NCBI RefSeq assembly: GCF_000718165.1
Contig: NZ_JOEY01000026.1
Location: forward strand, 82,300-146,299
Direction of reading: 5' to 3'
Length of the DNA: 64,000 nucleotides
Source: Streptomyces fulvoviolaceus
Lineage (GTDB): Bacteria; Actinomycetota; Actinomycetes; Streptomycetales; Streptomycetaceae
Position numbers and translations under genes: made by a program. Of the stretch, positions 188 to 11,875 are shown piece by piece. Within the stretch, counting starts at the first letter, position 1, and every line of letters starts with the position of its first letter. The notes below the pieces were generated by a model. The model saw nothing but the letters and a program-made list of their open reading frames with translations. It ran no database searches and had not been told where the DNA came from.

Positions 188-1807
188 ATGGGACATCTGG
201 AAGCCGCGCACCTCGAGTACTACCTCCCCGACGGGAGGGCACTGCTCGGCGATGTGTCCTTCCGGGTGGGCGAAGGGGCCGTCGTGGCCCTCGTAGGGCC
301 CAACGGCGCCGGTAAGACGACCCTGCTCCGGCTGATCTCGGGCGAGCTGAAGCCGCACGGCGGCACCGTCACGGTGAGTGGCGGCCTGGGTGTGATGCGC
401 CAGTTCGTGGGGTCCGTACGGGACGAGACGACCGTACGGGATCTGCTGGTGTCGGTCGCGCCGCCCCGCATCCGTGAGGCCGCGCAGGCCGTCGACAAGG
501 CCGAGCACGCCATGATGACCGTCGACGACGAGGCCGCCCAGCTCAAGTACGCGCAGGCCCTCTCCGACTGGGCAGAGGCACGCGGGTACGAGGCGGAGAC
601 GCTGTGGGACATGTGCACCACGGCCGCGCTCGGGGTGCCGTACGAGAAGGCGCAGTGGCGGCAGGTGCGGACCCTGTCCGGCGGCGAGCAGAAGCGGCTG
701 GTCCTGGAGGCCCTGCTGCGTGGCACGGACGAGGTGCTGCTGCTCGACGAGCCCGACAACTACCTCGACGTACCCGGCAAGCGCTGGCTGGAGGAGCGGC
801 TGAAGGAGACGCGCAAGACGGTCCTCTTCGTCTCCCACGACCGTGAGCTCCTCTCCCGCGCCGCCGAGAAGATCGTCTCGGTGGAGCCCTCGCCCGCGGG
901 GGCCGACGCCTGGGTGCACGGCGGCGGCTTCGCCACCTACCACGAGGCCCGGCAGGCCCGCTTCGCCCGCTTCGAGGAGCTGCGCAAACGCTGGGACGAG
1001 AAGCACGCCCAGCTGAAGAAGCTCGTGCTGACGCTCCGTCAAGCCGCCGAGAACAGCCCCGACATGGCCTCCCGCTACCGGGCCGCCCAGACCCGGCTGC
1101 GCAAGTACGAGGAGGCCGGACCGCCGCCGGAGCCGCCGCGCGAGCAGGACATCAAGATGCGGCTCAAGGGCGGCCGTACCGGCGTAAGGGCCGTCACCTG
1201 CAAGGGACTTGAACTCACCGGCCTGATGAAGCCCTTCGATCTGGAGGTCTTCTACGGCGAGCGGGTCGCCGTCCTCGGCTCCAACGGCTCCGGCAAGTCG
1301 CACTTCCTGCGACTGCTGGCCGGCGACACCGTGACGCACACGGGGGAGTGGAAGCTCGGTGCGCGCGTCGTGCCCGGGCACTTCGCCCAGACGCACGCGC
1401 ACCCCGAGCTGGAGGGCCGTACGCTCCTCGACATTCTGTGGAAGGAGCACGCCCAGGACCGGGGCGCCGCGATGTCCCGGCTGCGCCGCTACGAGCTGAC
1501 GGGCCAGGCCGAGCAGAGCTTCGAGCGGCTCTCCGGCGGCCAGCAGGCCCGCTTCCAGATCCTGCTCCTGGAGCTCCAGGGCGTCACGGCCCTGCTCCTC
1601 GACGAGCCGACCGACAACCTCGACCTGGAGTCCGCCGAGGCGCTCCAGGAGGGCCTGGAGGCCTTCGAGGGGACGGTCCTGTCCGTGACCCACGACCGCT
1701 GGTTCGCCCGCTCCTTCGACCGCTACCTGGTCTTCGGCAGCGACGGCCGCGTTCGCGAGACCGCGGAGCCGGTGTGGGACGAGCGGCGGGTGGAAAGGGC
1801 GCGCTGA
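188..1807 (+). CDS. ABC-F family ATP-binding protein
   Basis: This is a soluble tandem ABC ATPase of 539 residues with no membrane segment, the form of ABC-F ribosome-associated factors that act on translation or give antibiotic protection. The first nucleotide-binding domain has Walker A GPNGAGKT at about 37-44, signature LSGGEQ near 163 and Walker B LLLDEPDNYLD near 184. The second has GSNGSGKS near 364, LSGGQQ near 447 and LLLDEPTDNLD near 472. A charged helical linker (about 265-330, rich in K, R and E) joins the domains, as in ABC-F proteins. The usual EPTNHLD box is altered to EPDNYLD in domain 1 and EPTDNLD in domain 2. The specific target, resistance or housekeeping, cannot be told from the sequence. 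Confidence 0.9.
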   Translation: MGHLEAAHLEYYLPDGRALLGDVSFRVGEGAVVALVGPNGAGKTTLLRLISGELKPHGGTVTVSGGLGVMRQFVGSVRDETTVRDLLVSVAPPRIREAAQAVDKAEHAMMTVDDEAAQLKYAQALSDWAEARGYEAETLWDMCTTAALGVPYEKAQWRQVRTLSGGEQKRLVLEALLRGTDEVLLLDEPDNYLDVPGKRWLEERLKETRKTVLFVSHDRELLSRAAEKIVSVEPSPAGADAWVHGGGFATYHEARQARFARFEELRKRWDEKHAQLKKLVLTLRQAAENSPDMASRYRAAQTRLRKYEEAGPPPEPPREQDIKMRLKGGRTGVRAVTCKGLELTGLMKPFDLEVFYGERVAVLGSNGSGKSHFLRLLAGDTVTHTGEWKLGARVVPGHFAQTHAHPELEGRTLLDILWKEHAQDRGAAMSRLRRYELTGQAEQSFERLSGGQQARFQILLLELQGVTALLLDEPTDNLDLESAEALQEGLEAFEGTVLSVTHDRWFARSFDRYLVFGSDGRVRETAEPVWDERRVERAR

Positions 1808-1894
1808 ACCGGCGTTTCCCCCGTGTGGTTCGTAGAGTGGATGCAGGAAGGGCGAACGGACACTTCGAGCGGACACGACGAGCGGGGTATCACC

Positions 1895-2146
1895 ATGACC
1901 GGAGTCGACCCCAGCCGGCTGGACGACCAACAGCTCATGAAGGAGCTGGAGACGATCCACCGCACACGCCACGACACGCTGCTCTACGGCTCGAACGGCG
2001 CCCTGCGCGTGCACAACGAGCGCATGGCCCGGCTCGAGGGCGAGTACCTGCGCCGCAACCCGCGCCGCATGGTGGCCGCGAGCCGCACCCGCGAAGGGGC
2101 CCGGGAGCGCGGCCACGGCGAGTCGGCGACACCCGCCCTCGACTGA
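1895..2146 (+). CDS. Small DUF6158-like protein
   Basis: This is an 83-residue, charged, soluble protein with the core DDQQLMKELETIHRTRHDTL and EGEYLRRNP, which I associate with the actinomycete DUF6158 family of unknown function. The frame is open upstream to 1823, but the ATG at 1895 follows a purine-rich GAGCGGGG and begins with the family-like MTGVDP, so it is preferred. It starts 87 bp after the ABC-F stop codon on the same strand and could be co-transcribed. The sequence shows no catalytic motif, signal peptide or membrane segment. Confidence 0.75.
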   Translation: MTGVDPSRLDDQQLMKELETIHRTRHDTLLYGSNGALRVHNERMARLEGEYLRRNPRRMVAASRTREGARERGHGESATPALD

Positions 2147-2159
2147 GCCGACCGCGCGC

Positions 2160-2612
2160 TCAGTGGTGCGCCGGCGGCCGGTCCCAGTGGCGGTGTGCCG
2201 CGATCGCGGCCACGAACGCGCCCAGGAACTCCTCGCCGGCCGTGCCCGGCGCCATGTCCGTCACCACACCCCGGTCGCTCACCATCCGGTGGAACCCGGT
2301 CGACAGCCTGAGCCCCGTCGGCTCCAGCGCCGACAGGATCCCGACGCCCGAGCCGAACGCGCCCACCGGCTTCCCGTGCCGGTAGGCGTCCCGCACGAAG
2401 CGCATCGCGTCGGGGGCGGCGGTCGCGGGCGGGGTGCCGACCGGGCCGCCGGGCAGCAAGACGGCGTCGTACAGCACGGAGGGGACGGTCGGCAGACCGC
2501 GGTCGACCGTATATCGTTCGCCGTCGGCGCCCGCCACTGTGCCGTCCGTCGCCGCCAGTGCGTCGACGATCACGCCCTCCGCGGCCGGAATGCGATACGC
2601 ATGATGCTTCAA
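2160..2612 (-). CDS. Orphan catalase C-terminal (GATase/DJ-1-like) domain
   Basis: The 150 residues match the flavodoxin-like C-terminal domain of large-subunit catalases (KatE/HPII type): VPSVLYDAVLLPGG, a gap, then MRFVRDAYRHGKPVGAFGSG and the GVVTD and FLGAFVAAIAAHRHWDR tail. The catalase barrel is absent, and the first beta-alpha unit of the domain is also missing, since homology starts close to residue 14. The frame opens with a TTG at 2612 only 2 bp after AAAGGA; a GTG at 2573 is the alternative start. No catalase remnant is visible in the 67 bp before it. It is either a free-standing domain or a decayed catalase gene. In the catalases this domain has no known enzymatic role. Confidence 0.7.
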   Translation of the reverse strand: MKHHAYRIPAAEGVIVDALAATDGTVAGADGERYTVDRGLPTVPSVLYDAVLLPGGPVGTPPATAAPDAMRFVRDAYRHGKPVGAFGSGVGILSALEPTGLRLSTGFHRMVSDRGVVTDMAPGTAGEEFLGAFVAAIAAHRHWDRPPAHH

Positions 2613-2679
2613 CGTCCTTTCGTCGCATGGCAGTTGGTTGCGTCGCCGACGCGCTTCTTCTCCCGCGCGAGAGGGGCCG

Positions 2680-3066
2680 TCACTCCGGTTCCTCCGTGCC
2701 GGTCAGCTCCCGCGCGAGCTCCTGCACGGTGGCGTAGCGCTCCGTGGGCGGCAGGCCCTCCACGGCCTCGACGAGGACGTCGGGGGCGTTCCCGTGGCGC
2801 AGGGCGTGCGCCAGTTCCGGGGGCGTCGCGGGGAAGGAGCCGCGGCCCAGGATCCGGGCGAGCTCCAGCCGGACCGTCTCCAGCGTCGCTCCGGGCCGGC
2901 CGGGTGCGACGGTCCCGCCCCAGACCTCCGGATCGTCCTCGGCGGCCGGCTCCGGATCGTGCCACTCCGCGGTCCGGGTGGGGTGCCCGGAGCGCAGCAG
3001 ACCCTGCAGTTCGTGCTTCATCTCGTCGTCGCGGTGCCGGCTCAGCCGGTCGCTGCCTCGCTGCAT
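2680..3066 (-). CDS. DUF2795 domain protein
   Basis: The frame is open to 3564, but the 128-residue protein from the ATG at 3066 begins MQRGSDRLSRHRDDEMKHEL, which is how this family usually begins, and the upstream part looks like shadow sequence. The N-terminal part carries SGHPTRTAEWHDPEPAAEDD. The C-terminal half is a DUF2795-like helical domain with FPATPPELAHALRHGNAPDVL and LPPTERYATVQELARELTG. The function of the family is unknown. The gene lies 67 bp upstream of the catalase-domain ORF on the same strand, so the two may share a transcript. Confidence 0.75.
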   Translation of the reverse strand: MQRGSDRLSRHRDDEMKHELQGLLRSGHPTRTAEWHDPEPAAEDDPEVWGGTVAPGRPGATLETVRLELARILGRGSFPATPPELAHALRHGNAPDVLVEAVEGLPPTERYATVQELARELTGTEEPE

Positions 3067-3195
3067 GTCTCCGTCCAGATCTTCGGGGGTCCGCACCGCG
3101 TACCCGAGGACCGGAAGCCGACACAGGGTTTGCCGACCGGATGCCGGGAGACCCGGCACAGACCCCCCGCGCACATCTCTGGGGAAGGACAGGCC

Positions 3196-3381
3196 ATGGC
3201 GGTACTCGCTGTGCTCATCCCGCTGCTCATGCTCGGCGTGGTGCTGGCGCTGGGCCGATACGAGGAGCTGCTGCTGCCGGCGGAGGAGACGGACCGGCTC
3301 GAATCGGTCGCCCTGCCCGCCGCGGCCTCGCCCGCCATCGCCTCTCGCGGCCCGGCAGGAACTCCTGCCCCTTCGCCCTGA
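3196..3381 (+). CDS. Small single-pass membrane protein
   Basis: This is a 61-residue protein with an N-terminal hydrophobic helix (AVLAVLIPLLMLGVVLAL, about residues 2-19), a short charged stretch YEELLLPAEETDRLE and an Ala/Pro-rich tail. An AAGGA-type ribosome site lies just before the ATG. It is divergent from the DUF2795 gene. I do not recognise a family. Its stop codon lies inside the first unit of the 23-bp tandem repeat that follows, so the array formed against or extended into this gene. Confidence 0.6.
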   Translation: MAVLAVLIPLLMLGVVLALGRYEELLLPAEETDRLESVALPAAASPAIASRGPAGTPAPSP

Positions 3382-3460
3382 GACGAGTCGGCCCTTGGCC
3401 CCGAGGCGAGTAGTCCCATCGCGCCGAGGCGAGTAGCCCCTTCGCCCTGAGGTGAGGCAC
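3370..3460. repeat. Tandem array of four ~23-bp units
   Basis: Four degenerate units run 3370-3392, 3393-3415, 3416-3437 and 3438-3460. Each starts CC(C/A)TT or CCAT, has a central CC(T/C)GAG or GCCGAG, and units 2 and 3 share CGAGGCGAGTAG exactly. The array overlaps the 3' end of the small membrane protein gene and lies upstream of the sigma factor promoter region. Confidence 0.7.
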
Positions 3461-3652
3461 CTCGCGCGCCCCCGAAAACCTGCCCGGTGTTTGCGGCCGG
3501 AGGCCGGGGGCAGGCGCAATTCCAGTGCTTCGGACCGGAGGCACGTCCGTGGGAGCGGCTTCACGCCGCCGCGGCCGCGCCTGTCCGAACCACCGGCGCG
3601 CTCCCACGCTCACCGTCCAACCCAGAGCACATTCAAGGGAGTTGCGACGCAC

Positions 3653-4447
3653 ATGCCCACTCCAGTGAGCGCGAAGCACCACCCGCACGACGACGCCCCC
3701 GACACCGCGGACGCGTTCCGCAGTCTCGCCGAGCTCCCCGCGGGCCCGGAGCGCGACACGCTCCGCGGACAGATCGTCGAGGCCTGGCTGCCCATGGCCG
3801 ACCGGCTCGCGGGACGGTTCCGCAGCCGCGGCGAGAGCGTCGAGGACCTGCGCCAGGTCGCGGCCCTCGGCCTGGTCAAGGCCGTCGACCGGTACGACCC
3901 CGCACGCGGCAACGCCTTCGAGAGCTACGCCGTACCGACCATCACCGGCGAGATCAAGCGGCACTTCCGCGACCACATGTGGACCCTGCACGTGCCCCGC
4001 CGGGTCCAGGACCTGCGCAACCGTGTCCGCTTCGCCTGCCAGGACCTCTCGCAGACCGTCTCGGGCCGCAGGCCCACCGTCGCGGAGATCGCCGAGCACG
4101 CGCGCATGAGCGAGGAGGACGTCCTGGTCGGCCTCGAGGCCCTGGAGAGCTTCACGGCGCTGTCGCTGGACGCGGAACTGCCCGGCAGCGAGGACGGGTA
4201 CTCGCTGAGCGACGCGCTCGGCTCACCCGACCCGGCGCTGGACACGGTCGTGGACCGCGAGGCCGTGAAGCCCCGGCTGGCCGCCCTGCCCGAGCGGGAG
4301 CGGGCCATCCTCTACATGCGGTTCTTCGGCGACATGACGCAGAGCCGGATCGCCGAGCAGCTCGGCATCTCGCAGATGCACGTGTCCCGGCTGATCAACC
4401 GCTGCTGCGGGCGGATGCGCGAGCAGATCATGCGCGACGCCTCGTAG
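3653..4447 (+). CDS. SigB/SigF-family RNA polymerase sigma factor
   Basis: This 264-residue alternative sigma factor belongs to the actinobacterial SigB/F/G group that directs stress and differentiation genes. Region 2 is clear (VEDLRQVAALGLVKAVDRYDPARGNAFESYAVPTITGEIKRHFRDHMW), followed by the group-typical VPRRVQDL, a region 3 with AEIAEHARMSEEDV, and a region 4 helix-turn-helix with ERAILYMRFFGDMTQSRIAEQLGISQMHVSRLI. The ATG at 3653 sits 11 bp after AAGGGAG. No anti-sigma or anti-anti-sigma gene is adjacent, which is common for this group in Streptomyces. By remembered gene order it could correspond to sigK of S. coelicolor, but that needs an alignment. The 3' end is followed at once by a tandem repeat array. 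Confidence 0.93.
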   Translation: MPTPVSAKHHPHDDAPDTADAFRSLAELPAGPERDTLRGQIVEAWLPMADRLAGRFRSRGESVEDLRQVAALGLVKAVDRYDPARGNAFESYAVPTITGEIKRHFRDHMWTLHVPRRVQDLRNRVRFACQDLSQTVSGRRPTVAEIAEHARMSEEDVLVGLEALESFTALSLDAELPGSEDGYSLSDALGSPDPALDTVVDREAVKPRLAALPERERAILYMRFFGDMTQSRIAEQLGISQMHVSRLINRCCGRMREQIMRDAS

Positions 4448-5417: not shown

Positions 5418-5529
5418 GGCGGCGCCGTGGGTAACCACAGCGCGAGGGCACGAACCGCCCTGCACGACCGGCCGACACACCTGAGGCGACAGAGACAGCA
5501 GAAGACGAAGCCCCCTCACGGAGGTAACC

Positions 5530-6774
5530 ATGCGGACGGACCCGGAAGGCCACGGCCCCGTCCGCTACGGCCCGCCGCTCCCCGAGGACGGACTGCCCGT
5601 GCTGCCCGAGCTCACCGCCGTGCTCGCCGCGGCCGCCGCCCGCAGCCGGGCCGAGCCGGTCGGCGGCGGCACCGCCCTCCTCGAAGCCGCGTGCGGCTAC
5701 GGGAACCGGCGCGGCCTGCCCGCCGAGCCCGACCATGTCGTGGCCGCCCCCGGCGCCCCGTCCCTCCTGCTCGCGCTGACCGCCGCGCTCGGCGGCGACG
5801 TCCTGGTGCCCCGGCCCTGCGCCGCCTGGTGGGCGCCGTACGCGCGCCTGTTGGGAAGACCCTTCTTCCACGTGGCGACACCGGCCGAGTGCGGCGGTGT
5901 CCCGGATCCGTACGCCCTCCTGGAGACCGTGCGCAGGGTGCGCGCCGAAGGCGGTGACCCGCGCCTCCTGGTGCTGTCCGTCGCCGACGACCCCACCGCC
6001 ACCGTCCCTCCGCCCGAGTTGCTGCACGCGACGATCGAGGCCGCCGCCGGCGAGGGCCTGCACCTGGTCAGCGACGAGACCTGGCGCGACACCCTGCACC
6101 TCCCGCACGACACCGTGCTGCTCAGCCCCGCCGAGATGCTGCCCGACCGGGTCACCGTCGTCACCGACCTGGCCGGCGCCCTGCTGCCGACCGGCTGGCC
6201 GGCCGCGATCGCCCGCTTCCCGCCGGGCGGGGCCGAGAGCGGCCTACGCGCGCGTGTGCTCGACGTGCTCACCGCGCTCGGAGCCCGGGTCGCCGCACCG
6301 GTCGCCGCGGCGGCCGCCTACGCGCTCGCGGAACCCGAGCCGGTCACCGCCCGCCTCGCCGCCGCCGTACGCCTGCACGCGCGCGTGGCCGCCGCCGCGC
6401 ACGCCGCCGTTGTCGCGGCGGGCGCGCTCTCCCGGCCCCCGCGGGCCGGCCGCCATCTCTACGTCGATCTCGGCCCCCTGCGGCCCGCGCTCACCGCGCA
6501 GGGGGTCGGCGACGCCCAGGACCTGGAGGACTTCCTCACCGCCCGGCTCGGCATGCCCGCGCCCGGCGGTCACCGCTTCGGCGACGATCTCGGGGCGCTG
6601 CGCGTACGGCTGTCCACCGGCTCGCTGCTCGGCGGCACCGACGAGGAACGCGCGGAATGCCTCACGTCACCCTCACCGTTGGAACTGCCACACGTGCAAC
6701 GCGCGTTGATCACTTTGGAGTCGGTCTTCGACGAACTCCGCGACGACGCTCAGCGATGGGAGCCTCCTCGATGA
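5530..6774 (+). CDS. Aminotransferase class I/II-fold protein lacking all lysines
   Basis: These 414 residues follow the fold-type I aminotransferase plan: CGYGNRRGLP (entry region), AAPGAPSLLLAL (cofactor phosphate-binding turn), LVSDETWRD at the place of the conserved D-x-x-Y, VTDLAGALLPTGWPAA at the place of the SxSKxxGLAGxRxG cofactor lysine segment, and RVRLSTG near the substrate-carboxylate arginine. No lysine occurs anywhere in the protein, so the internal aldimine with PLP cannot form. The NPNNPTG motif is reduced to VADDPTATV and the Tyr of DxxY is Trp. A strong GGAGGT precedes the ATG. The stop codon overlaps the start of the next gene as ATGA, so the two are coupled. It is probably a non-catalytic or repurposed relative. 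Confidence 0.85.
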   Translation: MRTDPEGHGPVRYGPPLPEDGLPVLPELTAVLAAAAARSRAEPVGGGTALLEAACGYGNRRGLPAEPDHVVAAPGAPSLLLALTAALGGDVLVPRPCAAWWAPYARLLGRPFFHVATPAECGGVPDPYALLETVRRVRAEGGDPRLLVLSVADDPTATVPPPELLHATIEAAAGEGLHLVSDETWRDTLHLPHDTVLLSPAEMLPDRVTVVTDLAGALLPTGWPAAIARFPPGGAESGLRARVLDVLTALGARVAAPVAAAAAYALAEPEPVTARLAAAVRLHARVAAAAHAAVVAAGALSRPPRAGRHLYVDLGPLRPALTAQGVGDAQDLEDFLTARLGMPAPGGHRFGDDLGALRVRLSTGSLLGGTDEERAECLTSPSPLELPHVQRALITLESVFDELRDDAQRWEPPR

Positions 6775-7829
6775 CGCAGCAGTCCGAGTCGACCACGAGC
6801 ACGCCCACCCAGGAAGCCGACGATCCGGCGGTCCTGTCCTCCTTCGCTCCGTCCCCGCCCCTCACCGAACCCCGCCCGCCGGGCGAGCGGCGGGTGTGGC
6901 CGCGGTCCTTCCACGACCGCCTGACCGCCCCGCTGCCCGGTCTCAAGGCCATGGCCCGGTTCGCCCGAGAGGGCTCCGTACGACCGGGACGCGAAGGCCT
7001 CGCGGACATCCCCCGGCTGCCCTTCGAGCCCGCCCCGCTGCCCGCCGTCGACGCGCGCACCGTCGCCGTCTCCTGGGCGGGACACGCCAGCTGGGTCATC
7101 AGGATCGGCGGGCTGACCGTCCTCACCGACCCGGTCTGGTCCCGCCGCATCCTCGGCACCCCGGCCCGCATCACCCCGGTCGGCATCCCCTGGAACTCGC
7201 TGCCCCGCATCGACGCGGTCGTCATCAGCCACAACCACTACGACCACCTGGACGCCCCCACCCTGCGCCGCCTCCCGCGCGACACCCCCGTGTTCGCGCC
7301 GGCCGGGCTCGCTCGCTGGTTCCGCCGCCGCCGGTTCACCGCGGTCACCGAACTGGACTGGTGGGAGGCGGCCGAACTGGGCGGCGTCCGCTTCGACTTC
7401 GTGCCCGCCCACCACTGGTCCAAGCGCTCCCTCGTCGACACCTGTCGCACCCTGTGGGGCGGCTGGGTCCTCACCGCCCCCGACGGACAGCGCGTCTACT
7501 TCGCGGGCGACACGGGCTACGGCCACTGGTTCGCCCGCATCGGCCGCCGCTACCCCGGCATCGACCTCGCCCTGCTCCCCATCGGCGCCTACGACCCCCG
7601 CTGGTGGCTCAGCGACGTCCACTGCGACCCGGAGGAGGCGGTGCGAGCGGCCCAGGACCTGGGTGCGCGCCGCATGGCACCGATGCACTGGGCGACGTTC
7701 GTGTTGTCGGCGGAACCGGTACTGGAGCCGCTCACGCGGGTGCGGGCGGCGTGGGAGAAGGCGGGGTTGGACAGGGAGGACCTGTGGGACCTGCCAGTTG
7801 GAGGCTCACGCGTACTGCAGCTGACCTAG
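6771..7829 (+). CDS. MBL-fold hydrolase (UlaG/NAPE-PLD-like)
   Basis: This 352-residue metallo-beta-lactamase-fold enzyme has an N-terminal extension (about 1-90) that includes a cluster resembling the NAPE-PLD/lactonase entry segment, then VSWAGHASWVIRIGGLTVLTDPVWS. The metal-binding motif is SHNHYDHLD, followed by PAHHWSKR, FAGDTGYGHWF and a late MHW. These supply the usual two-metal ligands (HxHxDH, H, D, H). Likely chemistry is phosphodiester or lactone hydrolysis in the cytoplasm; there is no signal peptide. Start is the ATG at 6771, overlapping the preceding stop as ATGA with GGGAG upstream. The strict coupling suggests it works with the lysine-free aminotransferase-fold protein. Confidence 0.85.
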   Translation: MTQQSESTTSTPTQEADDPAVLSSFAPSPPLTEPRPPGERRVWPRSFHDRLTAPLPGLKAMARFAREGSVRPGREGLADIPRLPFEPAPLPAVDARTVAVSWAGHASWVIRIGGLTVLTDPVWSRRILGTPARITPVGIPWNSLPRIDAVVISHNHYDHLDAPTLRRLPRDTPVFAPAGLARWFRRRRFTAVTELDWWEAAELGGVRFDFVPAHHWSKRSLVDTCRTLWGGWVLTAPDGQRVYFAGDTGYGHWFARIGRRYPGIDLALLPIGAYDPRWWLSDVHCDPEEAVRAAQDLGARRMAPMHWATFVLSAEPVLEPLTRVRAAWEKAGLDREDLWDLPVGGSRVLQLT

Positions 7830-7884: not shown

Positions 7885-8505
7885 TCACCTGGCAGATCGA
7901 ACCCGTCTCCACACACTCGGCGCAGCGCTGATCGTAAGGGTCAGCGCGACCGCCGCCACCACACCTTCCCAAGGCTCGTTGAACAGCGACCCACCAAGAA
8001 TCCCGATCAGCTGATACGTCACTGCCCACGCCAGGCAGGCCGGTAGATTCCCCCGCGCAAACCGCCGCAACGGCCACTCGGCCATCAGGCAAGCCAACAT
8101 CACCGGAATCCGCCCCGCCGGCACCAGCCGAGACAACACCAGCACAGCCACACCATGATCCGCCAACTTCGCCTGCGCCTGCGCAAGCCTCTCCTCCGGC
8201 GCCCGCGACCGAATCGCCTCCAGCCACCGAGACCCGTTCCGCGATCCCATCCCACGCCGCCCGAGCCAGTACAACGCCATGTCCCCGAGGAACGCCGCCA
8301 GCGAGGCCGTAACAAAAACCAGCGCCAACGCGAACGGCGCCGTCTGATGAAACGCCACCACAGCCGCCGTACTCACCAACGCCCCCGTCGGCACCACCGG
8401 CACCAACGCCCCGAGCAGCACCAGCAGAAACAACGTCGGATACCCGATCGCCTGCTGCGTGGACTCGGGCGTCACACCCGTCGAGGCCGCGGCCAGCAGC
8501 ATCAC
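7885..8505 (-). CDS. DedA/SNARE-associated family membrane protein
   Basis: These 206 residues have the DedA pattern: a re-entrant hydrophobic N-terminus (TLFLLVLLGALVPVVPTGALVSTAAVVAF), a glycine-rich membrane segment ending in LGDMALYWLGRRG, a charged helix with EERLAQAQAKLADHG, then SRLVPAGRIPVMLACLMA, which is the family's R-x(3-5)-R/P segment, and C-terminal membrane helices. DedA proteins are linked to lipid scrambling and membrane homeostasis. The GTG at 8505 or the ATG at 8502 may be the start; both overlap the TGA of the upstream MBL gene, so the pair is an operon. Confidence 0.85.
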   Translation of the reverse strand: MMLLAAASTGVTPESTQQAIGYPTLFLLVLLGALVPVVPTGALVSTAAVVAFHQTAPFALALVFVTASLAAFLGDMALYWLGRRGMGSRNGSRWLEAIRSRAPEERLAQAQAKLADHGVAVLVLSRLVPAGRIPVMLACLMAEWPLRRFARGNLPACLAWAVTYQLIGILGGSLFNEPWEGVVAAVALTLTISAAPSVWRRVRSAR

Positions 8506-9275
8506 CGTGCGACCTCCAGCCGCACACTCTCCCCGTGCTCCAGCCGGTGCACGGCGACCCCGGGCGCGTACTCCGCCGCCAACCGCACGAACTCCGCACC
8601 CGGCGCGTGGAATTCGTGCGGGCGCACCGCGTCCATCGCGATGGGCCAGTACGTGCCGTAGTGCACCGGCACCGCGCTGCGCGGTGCCAGCCGGGCCAGC
8701 GCCTGGGCCGCGCGCCCCGCGTCCAGGTGCCCCTCGCCGAGGTACGGCCCCCAGCCGCCGACCGGCAGCAGCGCCACGTCGACCGGTCCGACCTCCTTGG
8801 CCATGTCGTCGAAGAGGCCGGTGTCCCCGGCGAAGTAGGTGCGCCCCTCACCTTCGACGACGTATCCGAGCGCGGGGGAGCGGTGCGGTCCGACCGGCAG
8901 CCGCCGCCCGTCGTGCCGCGCGGGCACGGCCCGTATCACCAGGTCACCGACCTGTGTCTCGTCCCCGGGGGCCACCTCGGCGACCTGGAGGTGGGTGAGC
9001 CGGCGCAGCGCCGGCACCGCCCGTGGTGCGCCCCGGGGCACGAGCAGGTGCGTGCCCGGGGCGAGCCGCGCCAGCGAGGGAACGTGCAGGTGGTCGGCGT
9101 GCAGATGGGAGACGAGTGCGACGTCCGCGCACCAGGCGCCGGGCGGCGGCACCGCACCACGTCGGCGGCGCAGATGCGCGAGGCGGCGGGCGAACAGAGG
9201 GTCGGTGAGCACGCGTACGTCCGAATCCGTGACCGTGCAGGTGGCGTGACCCCACCAGGTGATCTCCACCGGCAC
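8502..9275 (-). CDS. MBL-fold metallohydrolase (UlaG-like)
   Basis: This 257-residue cytoplasmic metallo-beta-lactamase-fold protein starts with the compact ITWWGHATCTVTDSDVRVLTDPLF. It has SHLHADHLHVPSL (HxHxDH), AVPARHDGRRL, the phosphate-side FAGDTGLFDD and VHYGTYWPI for the remaining metal ligands. This layout is close to the L-ascorbate-6-phosphate lactonase/UlaG group. It is translationally coupled to the downstream DedA gene, which suggests a membrane-lipid-related substrate, but that is inference. A second MBL protein at 6771-7829 is distinct in length and N-terminus. Confidence 0.85.
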   Translation of the reverse strand: MPVEITWWGHATCTVTDSDVRVLTDPLFARRLAHLRRRRGAVPPPGAWCADVALVSHLHADHLHVPSLARLAPGTHLLVPRGAPRAVPALRRLTHLQVAEVAPGDETQVGDLVIRAVPARHDGRRLPVGPHRSPALGYVVEGEGRTYFAGDTGLFDDMAKEVGPVDVALLPVGGWGPYLGEGHLDAGRAAQALARLAPRSAVPVHYGTYWPIAMDAVRPHEFHAPGAEFVRLAAEYAPGVAVHRLEHGESVRLEVAR

Positions 9276-9829: not shown

Positions 9830-11875
9830 GTGCGTGGAGGGCGTTGGCGGCGGGTCGCCAGTCAGGTCGGCCGGAGCGTCGCGGTGTGGGTCGTCTCCAC
9901 CCTCACGATGCTCGTCCTGGCAGGCATCCTGCCGGACTTCCGGCTCCAGTCCGTGGACGGCGACAGCGCCACCCGGATCGCCGTCACCGCGGCGTTCGGC
10001 GCCGGCGCCTTCGGTGTGCTGTCGGCCCTCGTCTGGCCGCTTCTCGTACGGCTGCTGCTGCTCGTGCCCGCGCTCGTGCTCGGGCTGCTGGTCTTCTTCC
10101 TCAACGGCGCGCTGCTGCTGATCGCGCTGCGCCTCAACCCCGCCGAGCGCGGCGACGCCGCCCCGGAGACCGCGGTCGTGGTCGCCGCCGTGATGTCCGC
10201 CGTCGCCTCCGCCACGGGTGGTGCGCTGGCCGTGCGCGACGACGACGCCTACCGGCGCCGGCTGTACCGCCTCGCCGACCGCCGCCGGGGCACCGGTCCG
10301 GCCATCCCCGCCACCCCCGGCATGGTCTTCATCCAGCTCGACGGCGTCGGCCACGACGTACTGACGGCCGCGGTGGGCAAGGGGCTGATGCCCACCGTCG
10401 CCAAGTGGCTGGGGGGCACCCACCGGCTCACCCCCTGGCGCACCGACTGGTCCAGCCAGACCGGCGCCAGCCAGCTCGGCATCCTGCACGGCAGCAACCA
10501 CGACGTCCCCGCCTTCCGCTGGTACGAGAAGGACACCGGGGAGGTGATGGTCAGCAACCGCCCGACCAGCGCCGCCGAACTCCAGCGCCGCGCCGTCGAG
10601 CGCACCGGCCACGGCGGGCTGCTCAGCGTCGACGGTGCCAGCCGCGGCAACCTCTTCGGCGGCGGCGCCGACGAGCAGGCCCTCGTCCTGTCCATCGCCA
10701 CCCGCCGCCGCAGCCGCGAGAACCGCTCCCGGGCGGGCTACTTCGCCTACTTCTCCGACCCGGCCAACGCCGTGCGCACCGCCATGTCCTTCGTCGCCGA
10801 GGTCGGCCGCGAGATCGGCCAGTCCACCCGTGCCCGCGTCCGCAAGGTGCGCCCGCGCGTGGGCCGCGGCGGCCTCTACCCCTTCGTCCGCGCCTTCGCG
10901 ACCGTCGTCGAACGCGACGTCGTGGTCGCCGCGGTGATGGGCGACATGCTCGCCGGCCGCACCGCCGTCTACGCCGACCTCGTGGCGTACGACGAAGTGG
11001 CACACCACTCCGGGCCGATGAGCCGCGACGCGGAGAAGGTGCTCGAACGCCTCGACCGCTCCCTCGCGTTGATCGAGCAGATCGCGGAGCACGCCCCGCG
11101 CGCGTACCGGATCGTCGTGCTGTCCGACCACGGCCAGAGCCCCGGCGAGACCTTCCGCACCCGCTACGGCCTCACCCTCGGCGACCTGGTCCGGGCCGGC
11201 TCCGGGCTGCCCGTGCCGCGCAAGGCCGAGCGCACTCACAGCGGCGCGGAGGCTCGCGCGGCGGTACGTGCGGCACTGCGGCGGCCGGTCGAGGAGAGGC
11301 GCGAGCACCGGCCCGCTCGCCGCGGTTCCGAGCCGATCGTGTTGGCCTCCGGCAACCTCGGTCTGGTGTCCTTCCCGGATGTGCCGCACCGGATGTCCAA
11401 GGAGGAGATCGATGCGCGGCATCCTGCTCTGCTGACGACGCTTGCCAACCATCCCGGGATCGGGTTTCTTCTCGTGCGGAGCGAAGAGCATGGTGGGGTG
11501 GTGCTCGGGCCGTTCGGTACGGAGATCCCTCTGGGGCAACTCGACGACGAGCCGGGCCCGTTGGCGGACTTCGGGCCGGGCGTGGCCGACGTGGTCCGCC
11601 GGACGCACTCCTTTCCGCACACCGCCGACATCATGGTGAACTCCTGGTACGACCCGGTCGAGGGCGAGGTCCTTGCCTTCGAGGAGCAGATCGGTTCGCA
11701 CGGGGGACTCGGGGGTGCGCAGGGGAAGCCGTTCTTGCTGTCGCCGGTCGCGCTGTCCGAGCCGCCCGAGGAAATCGCCGGGGCGGAGCAGATCCACCGG
11801 GTGCTGCGTGGTTGGCTCGATGAGGCGGGCGGACCCCAAGTGCCGTTGCCTGCTCGGCAGGAGAGGGCCGCGTAG
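9830..11875 (+). CDS. Holin-4 membrane domain fused to type I phosphodiesterase
   Basis: This is a 681-residue fusion. Residues about 10-130 form four membrane helices (VAVWVVSTLTMLVLAGIL, FGVLSALVWPLLVRLLLLVPALVLGLLVFFL, AVVVAAVMSAVASATGG) of the phage-holin-4-superfamily type. The remainder is an alkaline-phosphatase-superfamily phosphodiesterase/nucleotide pyrophosphatase: FIQLDGVGHDVL (metal Asp), DWSSQTGASQLGILHGSN (nucleophile region), AYDEVAHHSGPMS (Asp/His ligands), VVLSDHGQSPG (Asp-His) and a late SEEHGG. The enzyme domain is probably presented on one face of the membrane by the N-terminal helices. The start is the GTG at 9830. The substrate is unknown; a cell-envelope polymer or lipid headgroup is plausible. 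Confidence 0.8.
   Translation: MRGGRWRRVASQVGRSVAVWVVSTLTMLVLAGILPDFRLQSVDGDSATRIAVTAAFGAGAFGVLSALVWPLLVRLLLLVPALVLGLLVFFLNGALLLIALRLNPAERGDAAPETAVVVAAVMSAVASATGGALAVRDDDAYRRRLYRLADRRRGTGPAIPATPGMVFIQLDGVGHDVLTAAVGKGLMPTVAKWLGGTHRLTPWRTDWSSQTGASQLGILHGSNHDVPAFRWYEKDTGEVMVSNRPTSAAELQRRAVERTGHGGLLSVDGASRGNLFGGGADEQALVLSIATRRRSRENRSRAGYFAYFSDPANAVRTAMSFVAEVGREIGQSTRARVRKVRPRVGRGGLYPFVRAFATVVERDVVVAAVMGDMLAGRTAVYADLVAYDEVAHHSGPMSRDAEKVLERLDRSLALIEQIAEHAPRAYRIVVLSDHGQSPGETFRTRYGLTLGDLVRAGSGLPVPRKAERTHSGAEARAAVRAALRRPVEERREHRPARRGSEPIVLASGNLGLVSFPDVPHRMSKEEIDARHPALLTTLANHPGIGFLLVRSEEHGGVVLGPFGTEIPLGQLDDEPGPLADFGPGVADVVRRTHSFPHTADIMVNSWYDPVEGEVLAFEEQIGSHGGLGGAQGKPFLLSPVALSEPPEEIAGAEQIHRVLRGWLDEAGGPQVPLPARQERAA

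Follow-up and report, generated by a model that had tools for sequence, protein, structure and literature searches.

A lysine-free aminotransferase homologue kept by selection and linked to a NAPE-PLD-like hydrolase gene in Streptomyces fulvoviolaceus and related genera

A stretch of 64,000 nucleotides from Streptomyces fulvoviolaceus (contig NZ_JOEY01000026.1, positions 82,300 to 146,299 of the forward strand; the window) encodes an aminotransferase homologue of 414 residues that contains no lysine. The conservation of this protein among its orthologues suggests that it is a pseudoenzyme. It is a homologue of enzymes dependent on pyridoxal phosphate (PLP), it has lost the catalytic lysine, and by the evidence of its substitution pattern it is kept by selection. 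The gene stands directly upstream of one for a hydrolase of the metallo-beta-lactamase (MBL) fold related to NAPE-PLD. Judged from the genomes compared, the pseudo-aminotransferase is linked, but not bound, to this intact-looking hydrolase. A Lys-less homologue under selection in nine genera is annotated as a PLP-dependent aminotransferase in most of the named records listed, so metabolic models based on annotation would be wrong.

Loss of the cofactor site

The window protein has the fold of an aminotransferase without the residues that hold PLP. A predicted model covers the whole fold-type I aminotransferase fold, and the Pfam match is to Aminotran_1_2 (29.7 bits against a gathering cut-off of 19.7). 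Neither this protein nor the downstream MBL reaches the cut-off of an NCBIfam model; the best match of the 414-residue protein scores 27.7 bits (E-value 1.4e-06), where 366 would be required. The first-pass annotation, made from the letters of the window, had described a 414-residue fold-type I layout without any lysine, and the open reading frame and its translation are as it described. The segments that it singled out also fall in the expected columns when the protein is aligned with Lys-bearing relatives. These are VTDLAGALLPTG (residues 211-222) as the catalytic-lysine segment, VADDPTATV (residues 151-159) at the position of the NPNNPTG motif, and SDETW, in which Trp185 replaces the Tyr of DEIY.

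Columns were compared between 71 pseudo-aminotransferase sequences, including that of the window, and 37 Lys-bearing sisters. Near-duplicate, partial and Lys-bearing rows were removed from the first set. In the second, 11 sequences came from an unbiased whole-protein search and 26 from a scan of genome contigs with two peptide patterns. One of the patterns contains the lysine, so these 26 sisters, and 32 such rows of the tree described below, are a biased test of that residue, while the two whole-protein genome searches for relatives are unbiased with respect to it. Columns were linked to the aspartate aminotransferase (AspAT) of T. thermophilus through a profile alignment of the sister family, and residue roles are those that we take to hold for that enzyme.

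Lysine is absent from the catalytic column in every orthologue set compared (0/120, 0/55 and 0/71), in agreement with the earlier statement that no internal aldimine can form through a lysine. Most other PLP contacts have gone as well (Table 1). The Asn of PDNPTG, found in 36 of the 37 sisters, is Asp in all 71 pseudo-aminotransferases. The phosphate-cup Ser (36/37 sisters) has mostly become Ala (55/71), and the stacking Trp (36/37 sisters) is Ala or Pro in 62/71. In the PLP-contacting set of NPTG Asn, DEIY Tyr, phosphate-cup Ser and GWR Arg, the Tyr is kept in five sequences of 71 and the Arg in one. The SDE Asp, which we take to contact the pyridine nitrogen in real aminotransferases, and the C-terminal Arg equivalent to Arg358, which presumably binds the substrate carboxylate in true aminotransferases, are retained. 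Three helix positions (Glu132, Arg136 and Glu170) are each present in 71/71 pseudo-aminotransferases and variable in sisters, and by their conservation they may form a new surface.

The complete lack of lysine is, on these alignments, partly incidental, and the meaningful invariant is the loss in the catalytic column. Lysine is missing altogether from 42 of 70 orthologue rows (window protein counted). Among the 120 best homologues (at least 83% identity), 41 have no lysine and 73 have one at C-terminal column 397, which is the only frequent lysine that was found elsewhere. Within the window the property is unusual, being seen in one of the 35 open reading frames of at least 150 residues given by crude calling.

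Several trivial explanations were rejected. A sequencing error or a pseudogene is ruled out because relatives have the same open frame and motifs, and the ratio of nonsynonymous to synonymous substitution rates (dN/dS) is below 1. A displaced, compensating lysine as a general rule is excluded by the Lys-free rows and by the C-terminal place of column 397. Base composition fails to explain the catalytic column, as the lysine there is retained by relatives from other actinobacterial families (26/26 loci).

The names in public records vary. Four orthologues (P0006, P0009, P0050 and P0108) are called 'aminopeptidase', most other named records are called PLP-dependent aminotransferase, and neither name fits. 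A search of an open-access library, judged by title and abstract, found no publication on this family, and a function for the operon was not found.

Table 1. Features of the pseudo-aminotransferase and MBL genes in the window
Feature	Position	Strand	Details
GGGTAA/GGGTAC motif upstream of pseudo-aminotransferase	5429..5434	+	14-row upstream alignment
Shine-Dalgarno-like GGAGGT of pseudo-aminotransferase	5520..5525	+	Sequence; best-kept stretch of upstream alignment
Pseudo-aminotransferase open reading frame	5530..6774	+	ATG start; 414 residues, 0 Lys; PF00155 E 5e-07; fold-type I PLP-enzyme fold without catalytic lysine
Asp153-Asp154; Asp154 in place of PLP-contacting Asn of PDNPTG	5986..5991	+	Both Asp 71/71
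Asp182-Glu183 of SDE	6073..6078	+	71/71
Trp185, Tyr position of SDEIY	6082..6084	+	W 54, Y 5, F 5, other 7 of 71; sisters Tyr 37/37
Gly216, catalytic lysine column	6175..6177	+	G 47, A 17, E 5, P 1, Q 1 of 71; sisters K 37/37
Pro224, arginine position of GGWR	6199..6201	+	P 61, R 1, other 9 of 71; sisters R 37/37
Arg358, kept; aligns with C-terminal Arg of T. thermophilus AspAT	6601..6603	+	R 68, H 3 of 71
Shine-Dalgarno-like GGGAG of MBL, within upstream coding sequence	6758..6762	+	Sequence
NAPE-PLD-like MBL-fold hydrolase	6771..7829	+	352 residues; ATG 6771, ATGA overlap 6771-6774; alternative ATG 6756
HNHYDH metal motif of MBL	7230..7247	+	Four ligand residues each 57/57

Origin, distribution and selection

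The lysine and most of the PLP-holding residues were apparently lost once, before nine genera diverged, as read from the tree and the alignments. In a tree of 107 rows, with six more distant aminotransferases as the outgroup, the pseudo-aminotransferases form a single clade of 56 rows (Shimodaira-Hasegawa-like approximate likelihood ratio support 100), nested in a Lys-bearing actinobacterial family (98 and 98). The deepest row of the clade, L057, has lost the lysine and still has the Arg of GWR; this looks like an early stage of the loss. The Lys-bearing sisters, L057 and the remaining Lys-less clade form an ordered series, and thus a natural experiment in the repurposing of a PLP enzyme.

The Lys-less form has a limited range. 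In a sample of the family, the window protein has matches at E<=1e-20 in 217 of 297 genomes, which represent 14 of 17 genera. Five of these 14 genera (g15, g16, g17, g18 and g27) have printed identities of only 39-45%, which is the sister range, and the matches fetched from g16, g18 and g27 carry the lysine. Pseudo-aminotransferases come from nine of the 17 sampled genera (g1, g19, g20, g21, g22, g25, g26, g29 and g30). At the level of the order, matches at 1e-40 occur in 223 of 245 genomes, which belong to two of eight genera, both inside the family. At the level of the class there are matches in 66 of 296 genomes, 28 from Streptomyces and 38 from outside the family. The Lys, Asn, Tyr and GWR Arg are present in each of the 22 out-of-family relatives examined among these 38, and the DNA fetched around them, in which some flanks are only about 1.5 kb, does not contain the MBL. 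Since these relatives keep the PLP residues and show no MBL, the loss of lysine and the link to the MBL are confined, as far as sampled, to the one group of nine genera. Because only a few candidates were scored in each genome, absence from these searches is no proof.

The pseudo-aminotransferase is, on the substitution ratios, kept by selection. Against ten close relatives its dN/dS is 0.21-0.30, and that of the MBL is 0.11-0.32. In six pairs of sequences from loci lacking the MBL, the pseudo-aminotransferase gives 0.15-0.39. These values were obtained by the Nei-Gojobori method and are rough at this G+C content.

Linkage to the NAPE-PLD-like hydrolase

The downstream MBL looks intact. Its Pfam match is Lactamase_B_2 (169 bits), and its nearest solved relative by sequence is NAPE-PLD (PDB 4qn9, E 2.2e-60), to which query residues 96-349 align with the metal-ligand columns intact. 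The window MBL differs in being bacterial and in its first 95 residues, which do not align, and the likeness is one of sequence. The HxHxDH motif and the further metal ligands are present. Across 57 rows the seven columns that we take to be metal ligands are filled in 57, 57, 57, 57, 57, 56 and 55, the shortfalls being gaps. In one row, L101 (genome G306), the conserved PAHHWSKR segment of the MBL contains a stop codon, and the adjoining pseudo-aminotransferase is intact.

Where both genes occur they are nearly always neighbours. Coordinates were entered for 150 of the 217 genomes with an aminotransferase match and for 133 of the 170 with an MBL match. In 115 of the 117 genomes with both, the MBL lies directly downstream on the same strand, and the other two cases are at contig ends. 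MBL matches come from the same nine genera as the pseudo-aminotransferases. The ATGA overlap noted in the first-pass annotation is present, and an MBL start codon at position -4 is found in 24 of 55 paired loci.

The two genes do not always occur together, however. No MBL match at 1e-60 is found in 25 of the 150 pseudo-aminotransferase genomes, and the MBL is absent downstream at all 17 of their loci that were inspected. The DedA, second-MBL and phosphodiesterase neighbours described below are kept at 16 of the 17 (G032 was read in L085). The aminotransferase motifs are typical of the family in the 16 that were printed, and those of the seventeenth, L048 (G147), were seen in the alignment. On the tree, MBL presence and absence requires nine changes in a row set deliberately enriched in MBL-less loci. 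Such loci in the motif, start-codon and tree sets were chosen for lacking the MBL, so their share there is no frequency; the frequency is 25/150.

Conversely, the MBL is found without the pseudo-aminotransferase in at least four of the 170 MBL genomes (G278, G296, G311 and G157), a lower bound because the aminotransferase match in 18 others is known by E-value only. Three of these (G278, G296 and G311) have no aminotransferase match at 1e-20; in two of them, G278 and G311, the MBL gene begins at the end of a contig. In G157 the only match is a Lys-bearing sister. Another long open frame lies upstream of the MBL in G296 and G157. Loci L083 and L084 have retained the MBL but lack the pseudo-aminotransferase, and the long frame upstream of the MBL has, by eye, the appearance of a BTAD-type transcriptional regulator. 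The proposal of the first-pass annotation that the pair is a functional unit therefore stands as a two-gene neighbourhood (115/117 adjacent) and fails as an obligatory unit (25/150 without the MBL). In the latter respect it went past the evidence, and its suggestion of a non-PLP role is probably right. The repeated absence of the MBL makes it possible to test by comparison which of the two depends on the other.

Possible functions

The tentative reading preferred here, given somewhat less than an even chance, is that the pseudoenzyme has no catalytic activity and serves as a sensor or scaffold. It would bind a small ligand independently of PLP, or hold a partner protein, and would tune or feed the MBL where that is present. 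Sequence and tree point to a Lys-bearing actinobacterial class I aminotransferase as the probable ancestor. The fold is kept in the predicted model, and the dimer presumably is too. In the pocket geometry that we infer, the vacated cofactor site would be lined by the invariant acids Asp153, Asp154, Asp182 and Glu183 and by the substrate-carboxylate Arg. Where the MBL is present, the genes are probably co-transcribed, and in the window translational coupling appears likely because they overlap. The pseudoenzyme would then tune or feed a hydrolase whose metal ligands are intact, and a role independent of the MBL should exist too.

Some observations weigh against this reading. The columns of Asp153, Asp182 and Glu183 do not vary in either of the two sets compared (71 pseudo-aminotransferases and 37 sisters), and Arg358 is conserved in the sisters as well, which leaves Asp154 as the only new residue of the group. 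In addition, the SDE Asp is replaced by Asn in three further Lys-bearing relatives (L262, L263 and L264); it is not invariant across all sisters, which goes against a simple story. Of the five neighbouring genes compared, that of the pseudo-aminotransferase evolves fastest (mean distance 0.49 vs 0.26-0.30), which would also suit a protein under loose constraint. A mirror-tree comparison of 12 loci gave no signal of specific contact, with a distance correlation of 0.65 for the pseudo-aminotransferase and MBL and of 0.58-0.79 for the pseudo-aminotransferase and three neighbouring genes. Binding of PLP without a Schiff base is formally possible.

A bolder version, which is doubtful as a whole, holds that the emptied PLP pocket was rebuilt around the new invariant aspartate as a PLP-independent ligand sensor or active site controlling the NAPE-PLD-like hydrolase where present. 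If true, bacteria would have turned an aminotransferase fold into a receptor that needs no cofactor. The version of the earlier reader, a dedicated allosteric or substrate-presenting subunit in one complex with the MBL, seems rather doubtful. It would account for the same-strand adjacency, the shared nine genera, the start codons at -4, the rarity of the MBL without its neighbour and the lack of such an MBL near Lys-bearing relatives in the DNA fetched. The MBL-less genomes in which the pseudo-aminotransferase is still under selection, the nine changes on the tree, L083 and L084, and a mirror-tree result no better than for neighbouring genes all count against it. New catalysis is unlikely. The emptied pocket would in that case be a PLP-independent, acid-lined and possibly metal-binding active site made of Asp153/154 and Asp182/Glu183 with Arg358. 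The fixation of Asp154 and the conservation of the other acids, of Arg358 and of Arg360 (70/71) suit such a site, but all except Asp154 among its proposed residues are shared with sisters, and much of the remaining pocket (columns 76, 77, 98, 216 and 221) varies among pseudo-aminotransferases.

It is quite unlikely that the protein is a dead subunit that heterodimerizes with an active aminotransferase, as hLCB1/SPTLC1, which is without the Lys-containing residue set, pairs with hLCB2 (PMC3794620). The predicted fold is intact, but the other matches in the same genome are only 24% and 31% identical and no aminotransferase gene adjoins that of the pseudoenzyme. The column of sister Tyr50, presumably a Tyr contacting the cofactor of the other subunit, is also lost. 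That the protein is a slowly decaying relic with no selected function is very unlikely. Fast evolution relative to the neighbours, and genomes with only partial matches, part of them at contig ends, would fit decay, but dN/dS well below 1 and residues invariant across nine genera do not.

Comparison with known systems

Class I/II aminotransferases (PF00155; T. thermophilus AspAT, 1bjw; prephenate aminotransferase, 5wmh/6f77) share with the pseudoenzyme the whole fold, the SDE acid pair and the C-terminal Arg. The pseudoenzyme, in contrast, lacks the catalytic Lys, has replaced the GSK Ser, NPTG Asn, GWR Arg and stacking Trp, and mostly has Trp for Tyr. The Lys-bearing actinobacterial sisters (L034, L033, L256 and others) are 36-45% identical to the window protein, with similar length and the same order of motifs. 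They differ in keeping the PLP residues and in lying, as judged by eye, in loci that look biosynthetic or next to a LysR-like gene, with no NAPE-PLD-like MBL in the DNA fetched. In L074 and L075 (locus about 1400-3680) the sister aminotransferase forms a fusion with another protein of about 300 residues, which by eye is similar to a gene standing on its own downstream in L032 and L033. In L254, L256 and L251, from another actinobacterial family, the Lys-bearing relative is divergent to a LysR-looking regulator gene, again by eye.

Other PLP-enzyme homologues have lost the lysine. AZINs are regulators, and AZIN1, AZIN2, PDXDC1 and mouse Ldc1 are eukaryotic and belong to other enzyme families. 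These four lack the conserved catalytic Lys (PMC11016064), and SPTLC1/LCB1 of serine palmitoyltransferase is a homologue without the PLP lysine (PMC3794620, PMC11016064). By analogy, the LCB1-type heterodimer would be the nearest precedent by kind. SPTLC1/LCB1 pairs with an active homologue, whereas the window genome has no close one.

Upstream region and neighbouring genes

The upstream GGGTA[AC] motif, which we take to be a possible SigB-type -10 element, is only suggestive as a promoter on its sequence. Within the 14-row alignment it is seen in L001, L031, L004, L006 and L007, with a related form in L013, and is not seen in the remaining rows. A sigma factor gene with Sigma70 regions 2, 3 and 4 lies slightly upstream, at about 3653-4447. 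On the other side, convergent to the aminotransferase-MBL pair, is a second MBL gene (UPF0173-like, 8502-9275, minus strand) that overlaps by four bases the gene of a DedA/VTT-domain membrane protein (7885-8505); these two are kept at the MBL-less loci as given above. The neighbourhood also conserves a gene at 9830-11875, which encodes a type I phosphodiesterase domain and a holin-like domain with four transmembrane segments in one protein.
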